A DNA stretch of 64,000 bases, from positions 1 to 64,000 of the forward strand of contig JAOZHR010000004.1 of the NCBI GenBank assembly GCA_026014805.1, in the 5' to 3' direction. Made by a program: the position numbers and the translations under genes. This DNA comes from Candidatus Bathyarchaeota archaeon. GTDB taxonomy: Archaea; Thermoproteota; Bathyarchaeia; Bathyarchaeales; SOJC01. Of this stretch, positions 20,998 to 25,712 are shown piece after piece (position 1 is the stretch's first letter; each line of letters starts with the position of its first letter). The notes under the pieces were generated by a model. It was not told the origin of the DNA, made no database searches, and saw only the letters and a program-made list of their open reading frames with translations.

Positions 20998-23076
20998 CTA
21001 TACTACGTATCTGTGTCTGTCTTTGAACTCTTGCACCTTGCCCGCATTCCAACCCCGCAGCTGCTGATAATACCCTGTAATCCTGGACCAATGCTCCAAA
21101 TCATTACCCTCTGCCCCGCAACGCTTGCATCTAACCTGCAAATTAGCCTCCACATTATTGCACTTCCGGCAAATCGTCATATCTCGGGTGAAGGCAAAAT
21201 AAGCTGCCAACGACTCTGTTGCAATCCGCCTAATCAAGCTCCAAACCGCCTTGGGCGATGGGTTGCTCTCCCCGAGAAAAACATGCAAGATCGCGCCGCC
21301 TTTAGTCAATGGATGAAAACTCGACTCAACCCTAATCCGCTCCAATAGTGGAATCCTAGCTGACGGTCGAATATGAGAACTATTGGTATAGTAAATGCCC
21401 CCATTGCCAACATCGCCCTGCACAACTGCCTTTTCTCCAAACAGCCTACGATCAACCAAAGCTAACCTGTGCGCACAACTTTCTGCGGGGGTTTGAATAC
21501 ATCCAAACCGATAACCTGTCTCTTCCGCATAGTCGTTCACCCGCTCAGCCATGTGCCTAATTACTCGCAATCCAAAACGCCACGCGTTAGGGTCTTCATG
21601 CATCTCCGCACCCAAATGTGCCTTTAACAGCTCATTCAAACCTACAAAGCCCACGTTCAACACTTGTTTGTCCACGTTTAGATAGGGCTCGCCAAAGCAG
21701 TCCATGGCACAAAACGGCAGCGTACCTCCCTCCAGTCTATCTTTAACAACGTCCCGCTTAATGAAAAGTACATCCTTAGCCATGTCCATACGTTCATCTA
21801 AAAGCTCAAACAACCGATCATCATTTCCCCCAGCCTCATAAGCCAACCTCGGCAAATTAACAGTCACAACCTGCAAGCTCCCCATCCGCATAGCGCCCTT
21901 ATGAAAGTCTTTCAACTCGTCACTGTCAGGCGTAAAGATCAACCTGCAACATTGACTATTCACAATGTCAGGCATATAGTCAGGGCAAAGGTTGAGGAAG
22001 TACGGGGTTCCAAACTTGGACGCCAATGCAGCCACTTTAATATATTCATCTTCAAACTTATCCAAATATTCTCGTCGCAACTTCACTTCACACTTGGGGA
22101 AGTTGAACGGTTTCCCCAAATAGTCTCCGCCCATGTAAACGTCGAGGATAGCATTAAAGAAGGCATTAGCCTCGTCATAATAGTCAAGGTAGGTCTCCGA
22201 TCCACTGACTTTTCCACCGGGCAAAAGCACAGGCACATCCCAAATAATCTTGGGCACTGCACACTCTAAAGCAATGGAAGAAAAAACCGTCTGGCCACCC
22301 CGTGCGACGTACATCTGTGACATCTCGTAGATGTACATCTGCGCTAGCTGCTTCATACGATCATATGACAAACCTCTCACGAATGGTGCAAGCCATACGT
22401 TGAAAAAGTCATAGCCTTGTCCGCCCGCCCAATTCGTTTGTGCCGCCGCTAAAGCCTTGGCTGCGTGCAAAATTGCCACCTCCGCATGCTTCGCAGGACC
22501 AGCCACAGCCGTATGCACGCCTTCACCGTCGACAATCAAACCTTTTCTAAGAAAGAAGCGTAGGTCATGCTCTTGGCAGAAGGGCCTAGTTGCGAAGTAC
22601 TCAAGATCATGGATGTGAATGGCGCCGGCAATGTGAGCGTCTGCCAAATGCGGTGGCAAACAGTTTAACAACGCGTATTGGTCAAAAATGGCGTCGGCGG
22701 CAAGCTTGTGAATTGTTTCCGGATTGTGTTGGAGATTAGCATTCTCTTTGTCACCAGCGCGGATGAGTTTTTCGACATCAAACAGTGGAATACCGAGTCT
22801 GGTGTATCTAGCTCTGGGTCGTTCAAAATTGTTCTCTAATAATGCTACGCAGACAAACTCTCGAATTAGCGGACCAGACAAAAACTCTAGATCTAAGGTG
22901 TTTATCCGATCTGCAATGTCTAGGGCTATTTTATCTGCAACTTCGTCTGAAAGCCCTGTTTCTTTCATTAGAGAATCTCTTATTCTCTGTGGATTAAAGT
23001 CCTCGAACATTATTTTGGATGTTCTAACTCGTGGGAAATATTTGAGCGAATCTACAGTATATTCTTGTTGGCTCGT
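20998..23076 (-). CDS. nrdD: Anaerobic (class III) ribonucleoside-triphosphate reductase
   Basis: About 692 residues. N-terminal ATP-cone (FEDFNPQRIRDSL to NNFERPRARYTRLG), then the glycyl-radical barrel with SQCCRLIF (probable thiyl cysteine) and VNLPRLAYEAGGND, a zinc ribbon CRKC...CKRC, and the radical loop SRITGYYQ. It reduces NTPs to dNTPs without oxygen and needs the NrdG activase, absent here. The strong GGAGG at 23084-23088 is seven bases before an in-frame ACG (23074-23076); no ATG/GTG/TTG is correctly placed, the next ATG (23010) would cut into the ATP-cone, and the frame start at 23100 lies upstream of the ribosome site. ACG initiation is therefore proposed. An 8-bp palindrome CAGTACTG is at 23099-23106. 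Confidence 0.9.
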   Translation of the reverse strand, partial: TSQQEYTVDSLKYFPRVRTSKIMFEDFNPQRIRDSLMKETGLSDEVADKIALDIADRINTLDLEFLSGPLIREFVCVALLENNFERPRARYTRLGIPLFDVEKLIRAGDKENANLQHNPETIHKLAADAIFDQYALLNCLPPHLADAHIAGAIHIHDLEYFATRPFCQEHDLRFFLRKGLIVDGEGVHTAVAGPAKHAEVAILHAAKALAAAQTNWAGGQGYDFFNVWLAPFVRGLSYDRMKQLAQMYIYEMSQMYVARGGQTVFSSIALECAVPKIIWDVPVLLPGGKVSGSETYLDYYDEANAFFNAILDVYMGGDYLGKPFNFPKCEVKLRREYLDKFEDEYIKVAALASKFGTPYFLNLCPDYMPDIVNSQCCRLIFTPDSDELKDFHKGAMRMGSLQVVTVNLPRLAYEAGGNDDRLFELLDERMDMAKDVLFIKRDVVKDRLEGGTLPFCAMDCFGEPYLNVDKQVLNVGFVGLNELLKAHLGAEMHEDPNAWRFGLRVIRHMAERVNDYAEETGYRFGCIQTPAESCAHRLALVDRRLFGEKAVVQGDVGNGGIYYTNSSHIRPSARIPLLERIRVESSFHPLTKGGAILHVFLGESNPSPKAVWSLIRRIATESLAAYFAFTRDMTICRKCNNVEANLQVRCKRCGAEGNDLEHWSRITGYYQQLRGWNAGKVQEFKDRHRYVV

Positions 23077-23333
23077 GGAAAAACCTCCGCAGCGAAACAC
23101 AGTACTGCTTTCAGACTCTTAGAATTTTCAATATACATTTCAGCTAAAAAACAGACGGTGTGGATTGCATAGGCCATGGTCTCTATATACATAAAGATAT
23201 AAATTTTTCACACTTCGCAGATTACTTAAGATTTTTAGATAAGGCTGTATAAAATGCTGTAGTTTCATCCTTCAAAATTGACATGCTCGGTGTTTGACAT
23301 AAAGACATAAAAACCGCTGATTTAATGGTTTCG

Positions 23334-25442
23334 CTAGTAATGTGTTAAAGTGATGATGCTTGTTGAGCTACAGTTTGGGCATTTTAGATGGGTTCCGTGT
23401 GATGTAGTTTTGCAGTGGTGACAATGTGTGAGAGAGAGGTGATAGGCGAAGAAACCTATGTCCTTTGTAACGAGTTGCTTTGTTTTAATCAGAAGCTCCT
23501 CTGCATAGAGTTGCTCATCTTCAGTTTCTATAAGGGCCAAGTGACCGCCGGGGGTTAGTTGATGTATTCGTTCTTCTAGGCTGAGTTGTTCTTCTTCGAT
23601 GAGGAAAAGCGTGTTTGTGTCTGAGTAGTAAGGTTGTTCCTTAGTGCCTAGGGTTTTGACAACCCCCCACCCATATTCCTCTACGTCTAGTCTCGCAAGC
23701 CTCTTTGCCGCCTTTCTGTTGGGGATAATGGCTGTCGTCAATCGAGTTTTTGGTTTTTTAGCATGTTTCTTCGTGTAGGAGTTGATGTGCTTCAAAATTC
23801 TTTCCGTCACTACAAAAGCTTTCCCGTAATCTTCAGCCAATTCTTTGCCAATTAATGTTCGAACTGCTTCGTTTAGCCCTATCAATACTATTGTTCGTGT
23901 TGTATTTTCCAGTCTGAAGTATTGGTCACCATTTGTTTTCTGCATCAGATAAGGCAGGAGATTTTGCTCGGTCCGCTTCTTAACCGTTTGATATTTGATT
24001 TCTAAGGCTTGGCTAACCAAGTCAAGTTGCTCGTTCAGGAGTTCAAGGAATTTGTCTTCATCTCCTCTGGCGTCATAGGAAACTCTAGGTAGATTAATGC
24101 TAACGAGATCTAGATTTCCTGCTCGTTGAGTGTCGAGTTCCCAGTCTTGGAGCCATTCATCTGCCAGTCTCAAACCAGAAGCCGTGTACGTAGCGTTTTT
24201 TTGGTTGTCGGGGCACAGGTTGGCAAAGTATATGAGAACGCTTGTTGCGGCGAGCTTGTGTGCTCCATGAAGCAAACTCTCTGCTTCGGCGTTTTTGAGG
24301 GTTTCTTGTCGTGTTTTTATAATTATTTTCGGGTTCTGCAAAGGATACGTCTTGTTTTCTTCAGCTAATGTTTCTAGCAATAAGAGGGCGAGTTGTTGAG
24401 TTTCGTTGGCGTACAGAGTGCTCTTTTCTGCCGAAAGCTCTAGGCATATTGTTGTAGGTGTTGGAGTTGTTTGGTTTAGGTTCTTGATGAAGAGACGTAG
24501 AAGTTCTTTGATTTTATTAGAGGCTACATCCTTTGTGTAAGGGGCTAAGTAGATGTTGAAATCGTCTAAGCTCTGTAGCCCTGTTATTTCTGTCGCACTG
24601 TTTTGGATGATGTTTGTTGTGACGTTGAGGGCTGCTTCAAGGGTTTTTGGCTTGAAGGCGTGAAAGAAGTATGGAAGGCTGTGAGTGATTTCGTTTGGTT
24701 TTAGTATCCATGTTCCGAGGTTGTAGAGGTGTAGTTTGCCGCTTAGATGAGCGTCCGAGATGTTGCGAGGTAGGATGTTTAGAAGCGTATATTCTTCTAT
24801 AACTGCGTTGCCTGCCGCTTTGTGAACTGCTTCTACGTTTGGTCGTGGCGCATCGATTAGCCGAGTAACTTCGTGCACGGGTAGGCCTAGGCGTGTGAGT
24901 TTGTGGCGGTAGTCTTCGTGGTGTTTTTCTAGGAGAATTGTGTTGACGATTTCACGGATGAGGGGCGCTGTCAAGTATTTGGTCTTGAATTGTTGGAGGC
25001 GTTTTTCTGTTTCTCGGGCGATTTTTTGGGCGATATCTGTTGGAACATTAGCCTCCTTGATTAGGGATTTGGTGATTTTGTTTCTGTCGAATTCTTCTAT
25101 GGAAAGGCGGGATGTGCGGATGAGCATTTTTCTGCGTTTGTATGTTTTATCTTCTATTTCGTCGGTGATTTCGATGATGCGTCTGCCAAGGTCTGTCAGG
25201 CGGTAGTTTTTGGTTTCCACGTCGGGTTCAATTAGGTCGGCTTTTAAGAGGGATTTGAGGTGGTAGGCGAAGCGTCCAGCGTCGCGGGTGGCATCAAGTT
25301 TTAGGTAATTCATGATCTCTGTGTAGGATAAGGGACCATGTTCCAAGAGTAAGTTTAAGATTTGTATACGTATTTGTGCTGATATTGCTTTAAGTACTTG
25401 GATGCCGGCCTTGTGGATGCTGCGAAGTTTTGGGTTAGGCAT
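23334..25442 (-). CDS. Winged-helix / ATP-cone / NrdD-like fusion lacking the glycyl radical site
   Basis: A 702-residue protein. Residues about 5-80 are an ArsR-like winged helix (LKAISAQIRIQILNLLLEHG, SYTEIMNYL). Residues about 95-195 are an ATP-cone and the rest aligns with the neighbouring nrdD product (VSINLPRVSYDARGDED versus VTVNLPRLAYEAGGND). The nrdD cysteine pair SQCCRL is replaced by TASGLRL, and the chain ends 12 residues after the zinc ribbon CHHC...CPNC with no SRITGYY loop. It should be unable to reduce nucleotides; binding dNTP/ATP to control transcription, like bacterial NrdR, is the inference. ATG 25442 fits the HTH start. A GTAC-N4-GTAC inverted repeat (25507-25518) lies upstream of a TATA-like TTTAAACTATAC. 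Confidence 0.82.
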   Translation of the reverse strand: MPNPKLRSIHKAGIQVLKAISAQIRIQILNLLLEHGPLSYTEIMNYLKLDATRDAGRFAYHLKSLLKADLIEPDVETKNYRLTDLGRRIIEITDEIEDKTYKRRKMLIRTSRLSIEEFDRNKITKSLIKEANVPTDIAQKIARETEKRLQQFKTKYLTAPLIREIVNTILLEKHHEDYRHKLTRLGLPVHEVTRLIDAPRPNVEAVHKAAGNAVIEEYTLLNILPRNISDAHLSGKLHLYNLGTWILKPNEITHSLPYFFHAFKPKTLEAALNVTTNIIQNSATEITGLQSLDDFNIYLAPYTKDVASNKIKELLRLFIKNLNQTTPTPTTICLELSAEKSTLYANETQQLALLLLETLAEENKTYPLQNPKIIIKTRQETLKNAEAESLLHGAHKLAATSVLIYFANLCPDNQKNATYTASGLRLADEWLQDWELDTQRAGNLDLVSINLPRVSYDARGDEDKFLELLNEQLDLVSQALEIKYQTVKKRTEQNLLPYLMQKTNGDQYFRLENTTRTIVLIGLNEAVRTLIGKELAEDYGKAFVVTERILKHINSYTKKHAKKPKTRLTTAIIPNRKAAKRLARLDVEEYGWGVVKTLGTKEQPYYSDTNTLFLIEEEQLSLEERIHQLTPGGHLALIETEDEQLYAEELLIKTKQLVTKDIGFFAYHLSLTHCHHCKTTSHGTHLKCPNCSSTSIITLTHY

Positions 25443-25506
25443 GGTGATGCGCCTTTTGCGGGATATTTCCTTAGAGTTTGTATAGTTTAAAGGTTGGGGA
25501 GAGATT

Positions 25507-25518
25507 GTACGTGTGTAC
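25507..25518. promoter_or_regulatory. GTAC-N4-GTAC inverted repeat
   Basis: GTACGTGTGTAC lies about 20 bases upstream of the TATA-like element of the NrdD-like fusion gene. The nrdD leader holds CAGTACTG, which shares the GTAC core. A candidate operator for autoregulation; weak evidence. Confidence 0.3.
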
Positions 25519-25609
25519 TCAATGCTTAGATTCGACTGATCTATTAAGCGGCAAACATATTTGGGAACGCTTAAATTATTAGTGTGCATTCTTTTTTTGA
25601 GGTTGTAGG

Positions 25610-25712
25610 GCGGCGGTAGCCAAGCCAGGTCAAAAAACTGTTGGCCATAGGCGAAGGACTCAAGATCCTTTCCCGTAGGGGTTCGCCGGTTCGAATCCGG
25701 CCCGCCGCACCA
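25610..25712 (+). tRNA. tRNA-Leu (CAA) with enlarged D-loop, possibly intron-bearing
   Basis: Acceptor GCGGCGG/CCGCCGC, anticodon stem AAGGA/TCCTT with loop CTCAAGA (anticodon CAA), a CCCGTAGGG variable arm, T-arm GCCGGTTCGAATCCGGC, discriminator A and encoded CCA (25710-25712). The D-loop between GCC and GGC is about 28 bases, against about 13 in ordinary tRNA-Leu; the excess AAACTGTTGGCCATA follows GGTCAAA. Either a very short non-canonical intron or an unusual D-loop. Confidence 0.9.

Follow-up and report, generated by a model that had tools for sequence, protein, structure and literature searches.

A catalytically dead class III reductase joined to a winged helix as a putative regulator of ribonucleotide reductase genes in Thermoproteota

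The closest described working analogue of the protein reported here is NrdR, a regulator of 140-220 aa whose N-terminal zinc ribbon binds DNA (PMC9110341) and whose ATP-cone controls both its assemblies and its DNA binding (PMC9110341, PMC12176259). Archaea are described as seldom carrying this bacterial repressor (PMC9110341), which leaves the control of their ribonucleotide reductase (RNR) genes largely to be explained. An ATP-cone is also found in the class III reductase NrdD, where dATP drives cone pairing and the formation of tetramers (PMC11226230). In a stretch of 64,000 nucleotides from a Candidatus Bathyarchaeota archaeon (the window, i.e., the whole stretch of DNA that was analysed), we describe a protein in which, as in NrdR, an ATP-cone is joined to a DNA-binding domain (here predicted), and we compare it with both systems.

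The gene (23334..25442, -) encodes a putative RNR regulator of 702 aa made of a winged helix-turn-helix (wHTH), an ATP-cone, a catalytically dead NrdD body and a zinc ribbon. A winged helix, an ATP-cone and a full-length NrdD-like body had been proposed by the first-pass annotation, and all three were borne out by Pfam: the wHTH (residues 16-91; 25170..25397, -) matches DUF7347 (E=4e-10) and the ArsR-like HTH_5 (E=3e-5), the ATP-cone (residues 107-178; 24909..25124, -) reaches 33.9 bits against PF03477 (cut-off 25.8), and the alpha/beta-barrel body (residues 202-695; 23358..24839, -), whose catalytic residues are lost, matches PF13597 with E=5e-68, despite a score below the cut-off of NCBI TIGR02487 (NrdD). 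Both catalytic elements that the same annotation had reported missing are indeed absent: TASGLRL (24165..24185, -) stands in place of the catalytic SQCCRL finger-loop motif, and the chain stops 11 residues past the last cysteine of the zinc ribbon (CxxC...CxxC; C674, C677, C688 and C691; 23370..23423, -), leaving no glycyl loop of the SRITGYY kind. Note that the open frame could start at 25589 (751 aa), while conservation starts at the ATG at 25442. Upstream, at 25610-25709 (+), lies a sequence which by eye resembles a gene for tRNA-Leu(CAA) with additional nucleotides in its D arm (possibly a non-canonical intron); it is reported neither by ARAGORN nor by Rfam at the gathering threshold, and several relatives have a similar sequence ahead of their regulator gene.

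As claimed from the letters, the regulator gene immediately precedes nrdD in the same orientation, with a gap of 233 bp. This nrdD (20998..23100, -; 700 aa), the likely target gene, encodes an intact class III enzyme (TIGR02487 517.6 bits, cut-off 326) with both SQCCRL and SRITGYY; it shares 28% identity with the regulator across 650 residues (E=1e-78). The N-terminal strand of the cone reads VRTS in the two proteins alike, at a place where E. coli NrdA has K-R. The true start codon of the window nrdD is uncertain: around 23050-23100 (-) most close relatives have ACG after a GGAGG-like sequence, L009 and L011 have ATG at that position, and the annotated GTG lies upstream. The same genome also carries a class II nrdJ, away from the regulator (G000:C25:45737-47404; L258).

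When the protein was aligned with its neighbour and with other NrdDs, neither an intact cysteine pair nor a glycyl loop emerged, and a catalytic loop hidden by misalignment was likewise rejected upon realignment, both for the window protein and for its relatives. Indeed, among 154 distinct full-length members, none has the catalytic CC at the finger-loop site and none has the RxxGY glycyl motif. Counting the NrdD-invariant positions in 36 true NrdDs and 49 dead-NrdD regulators, we found that the active-site cysteines are almost gone from the latter (C175 in 0/49, C384 in 1/49 and C385 in 3/49), as are the NxN flap (N120 in 0/49, N122 in 6/49) and the loop-2/s-site residues Q270 and F273 (0/49 each); G676 is aligned as G in 5/49, without the RxxGY motif. 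The names NxN flap and loop 2 were assigned by motif, from PMC11226230 and general knowledge of NrdD, and not by superposition. Structural positions, by comparison, are retained by nearly all 49 regulators (G159 in 48 and, in the barrel, N415 in 49, P417 in 48, R418 in 48, G487 in 49, E490 in 47 and D550 in 49), together with the zinc cysteines (46-48). Judged from these alignments, the losses are specific: catalytic or substrate/effector positions go and structural positions stay. The earlier statement that the protein keeps the nucleotide sites thus holds for the ATP-cone, but not for the NxN flap (N120/N122), C175/C385, the loop-2/s-site (Q270, F273) or the glycyl loop.

An AlphaFold model built with 43 sequences (pLDDT 85, pTM 0.72) is predicted to have the NrdD fold (Foldseek E=1e-24 to 9d3x; target TM 0.74 to 1h78, T4 NrdD), and the next matches after the RNRs are NrdR structures, through the ATP-cone. 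The predicted secondary structure of the wHTH consists of helices at residues 9-19, 23-35, 40-46 and 55-67 and strands at 71-73 and 80-82.

A protein search with the window sequence gave a match in 101/101 related genomes, a figure which by itself does not count the dead-NrdD family, given that the search matches ordinary NrdD too. The search for fusions of this architecture and for their link to nrdD, which the first-pass annotation had put forward, gave HTH/ATP-cone profile matches in 243/398 Thermoproteota genomes (the weaker tail may include NrdD cones) and a recurrent coupling to RNR genes. The best 80 loci of the contig scan are nearly all titled Bathyarchaeota, a few being named Nitrososphaerota, Crenarchaeota or uncultured archaeon only. 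The single relative from a viral contig, a 39% match restricted to the ATP-cone part, was taken as ordinary NrdD. In a quick tree with midpoint root and some long branches, the dead NrdDs form one group apart from the 36 NrdDs (SH-aLRT 100). Those near the window are under purifying selection, with an omega of 0.11 overall against L005 (82% identity), 0.055 in the HTH, 0.049 in the ATP-cone and 0.14 in the body. Mean column identity is 74% for the HTH and ATP-cone and 59% for the whole protein, all four zinc-ribbon cysteines are invariant in 43 Bathyarchaeia members, and the HTH has invariant residues as well. In family f29 the open frame extends over about 540-550 aa only, so the full NrdD body is not strictly needed.

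In the retrieved flanks, every RNR gene follows the regulator in the same orientation, some 75-900 bp downstream. Families f1, f4, f6 and f37 have nrdD as the partner, and f10, f19 and f61 have class II nrdJ; loci retrieved through nrdJ again displayed the order regulator then nrdJ in f48 and f51, two families in which no NrdD was matched at E 1e-20. On the NrdD tree, the partner NrdDs are spread over four clades (L002-type, L081-type, L165 and L073). Families f19, f48 and f51 are ammonia-oxidizing archaea, as archaeal amoA was found in 14/14 genomes tested. Chance would give a same-strand RNR neighbour at a rate of ~6e-4 per genome (rough estimate), which makes repeated coupling to different enzymes by accident very unlikely. 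The role first proposed, a sensor for nrdD, therefore fits the four families with nrdD downstream but is too narrow for those in which nrdJ takes this place.

Two genomes of apparent separation between regulator and nrdD (G004 and G012) were discarded as such, as the breaks fall on 100-N assembly gaps; they neither speak against linkage nor count as independent cases of the promoter element accompanying nrdD, and in G012 a gap-cut nrdD start is located downstream of the regulator too. Such 100-N gaps occur in the Bathyarchaeota chromosome records L179-L182, L006, L014, L078 and L083, in which gene order across gaps is therefore unreliable. In f6 loci such as L071, L077 and L131, a small glutaredoxin/NrdH-like gene separates the regulator from nrdD and probably encodes the electron donor for that NrdD type. 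The f37 NrdD (L165:9889-11928) has the CC motif and its open frame stops before any glycyl loop, possibly through truncation or sequencing error.

With the NrdR profile TIGR00244, no match was obtained for the window protein or in its genome, and within the sampled phylum NrdR exceeded the cut-off in f7 and a single f1 genome and nowhere else. In the Bathyarchaeia family f7 (L183-L186), nrdD is immediately preceded by a co-directional NrdR gene in 4/4 fetched loci, and the dead NrdD of this family sits away from nrdD; in f1 the regulator holds NrdR's place. This exchange of position between NrdR and the dead NrdD is the best functional analogy available, and the bacterial-type NrdR of f7 was probably acquired by transfer. 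The near-absence of NrdR where the dead NrdD is coupled to RNR genes fits the regulatory role originally suggested.

Several candidate DNA elements were found around the two genes, all derived from the same promoters that suggested them and therefore given as leads only. Upstream of nrdD, a TGTCAA direct repeat, TGTCAAACACCGAGCATGTCAA (23278..23299, -), is a candidate operator; TGTCAA repeats are found in most nrdD promoters of f1, the window's own family, and some of f6, and the repeat pattern occurs 3 times in the window's own genome. Between regulator and nrdD, a block with a TATA-like core, ACAGCATTTTATACAGCCTTATCTAAAAA (23232..23260, -), is kept across f1, f4 and f6 in the form TACARAATTTTATACA-N7-TCTAAAAATTTTAAG and has a single match in this genome; it may be mostly core promoter. 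Upstream of the regulator, the conserved CCCCAACCTTTAAA (25486..25499, -), seen in f1 upstream regions, is the probable promoter of its gene. By eye, the nrdD promoter elements are absent upstream of the own-genome nrdJ, and in ammonia oxidizers palindromes of the TGTCAAY-N3-ATTGA kind are located upstream of nrdJ. TGTCAA as a universal operator was rejected: in a 40-genome set whose RNR loci are nearly all unlinked, it was found in ~5/44 RNR upstream regions against ~8 expected by chance (a rough, scaled expectation), and we claim no general operator from a motif that is not enriched at unlinked RNR genes. The GTAC-N4-GTAC repeat which had been pointed out before the regulator does exist (25507-25518), but its conservation is confined to the same genus, and it was dropped.

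Taken together, the domain make-up, the specific catalytic loss, the single clade, the purifying selection and the coupling to RNR genes suggest that the window protein senses nucleotides and controls the transcription of RNR genes, and that it is derived from a class III reductase and arose once, anciently, in Thermoproteota, a reading to which we give a probability of about 0.72. The winged helix would bind the promoter of the downstream RNR gene and the ATP-cone would read dATP versus ATP. The state of the cone would then alter the association of the NrdD-like dimers and shift the affinity for DNA, the barrel serving as a dimerisation and transmission scaffold and no longer as an enzyme. 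Repression of RNR transcription at high dATP would be the likeliest direction. What counts against this reading is that many families (f7, f9, f20, f25 and others) have no RNR gene found near the regulator, flank lengths being variable, and that TGTCAA is not enriched at unlinked RNR genes. The VRTS of the cone in place of K-R and the shortened open frame of f29 weigh on the same side.

The adjacent, co-directional arrangement with RNR genes and the preservation of an NrdD-like dimerising body could also be explained by a non-catalytic partner subunit, in which the dead NrdD would hetero-oligomerise with the active RNR and tune it allosterically, the winged helix being a protein-protein module. 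We consider this unlikely, because genomes in which no NrdD was detected have the protein paired with class II NrdJ, an enzyme to which an NrdD-type dimer interface is not expected to fit, and because the HTH and cone are the most conserved parts, while the body drifts and is shortened in f29. Likewise improbable is that the protein regulates nucleotide metabolism more broadly (pyrimidine synthesis, salvage) and not RNR specifically. In favour of this, the regulator is unlinked to RNR in many genomes and its neighbour in f7, as in G008 of f1, is pyrB (aspartate carbamoyltransferase) on the opposite strand, with pyrI adjoining. However, pyrB is convergent and on the opposite strand in most loci, so no promoter is shared, and RNR genes, from two classes, are the sole partners recognised that recur downstream in the same direction. 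A functionless, decaying paralogue or a pseudogene would agree with the loss of the catalytic residues, but the chances of this are negligible in view of HTH/cone matches through so much of the phylum, open frames throughout, an omega of about 0.1 and invariant zinc cysteines and HTH residues.

Beyond the regulator reading for the window protein itself, we lean towards a phylum-wide form of archaeal RNR control that has the ATP-cone alone in common with NrdR. In this form, the dead reductase would be a dNTP-sensing factor for whichever RNR is used (nrdD or nrdJ), ammonia oxidizers included, and NrdR would have taken the nrdD-side position in one Bathyarchaeia family. The dead-NrdD family thus provides a concrete and widespread candidate RNR regulator in archaea, including culturable ammonia oxidizers, whose cobalamin-dependent reductase is known (Nmar_1627 in Nitrosopumilus maritimus; PMC4303638). 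It also carries an annotation risk, as dead NrdDs may be mistaken for anaerobic reductases, in aerobic organisms too. No earlier description of an HTH-ATP-cone-dead-NrdD protein was found in the open-access literature, Pfam, NCBIfam and PDB being the curated databases covered.

Among the known systems, WhiA, which is related to homing endonucleases (PMC3781837), resembles the window protein as an enzyme fold reused for transcription control. ArsR-type and DUF7347 regulators are matched by its N-terminal domain, but here the winged helix is one module of a large protein. The archaeal RbkR and GfcR are further enzyme folds reused as transcription regulators and, to our knowledge, none among WhiA, RbkR and GfcR is built from a ribonucleotide reductase. 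Common descent with the class III RNR NrdD is clear from the shared ATP-cone, barrel body and C-terminal zinc ribbon; in contrast to NrdD, the dead NrdD is without the cysteine pair, the first active-site cysteine, the NxN flap, loop 2 and the glycyl loop, and it adds an N-terminal winged helix. As with NrdR, the regulator gene often lies directly upstream of RNR genes, and the window protein would be expected to read adenine (deoxy)nucleotides. Apart from the lack of a profile match, it differs from NrdR in DNA-binding domain, size and origin: NrdR binds DNA by its zinc ribbon, whereas the window protein would do so by its winged helix, and it carries, unlike NrdR, a dead NrdD body of ~500 residues with its own C-terminal, NrdD-type zinc ribbon. 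Regulators of RNR that sense dNTPs are thus known as a kind through NrdR, and construction from a dead NrdD appears to be new. If our reading is true, the allosteric machinery of an enzyme has come to switch the gene of that very enzyme, and NrdR and the dead-NrdD family have arrived independently at the same use of the ATP-cone.
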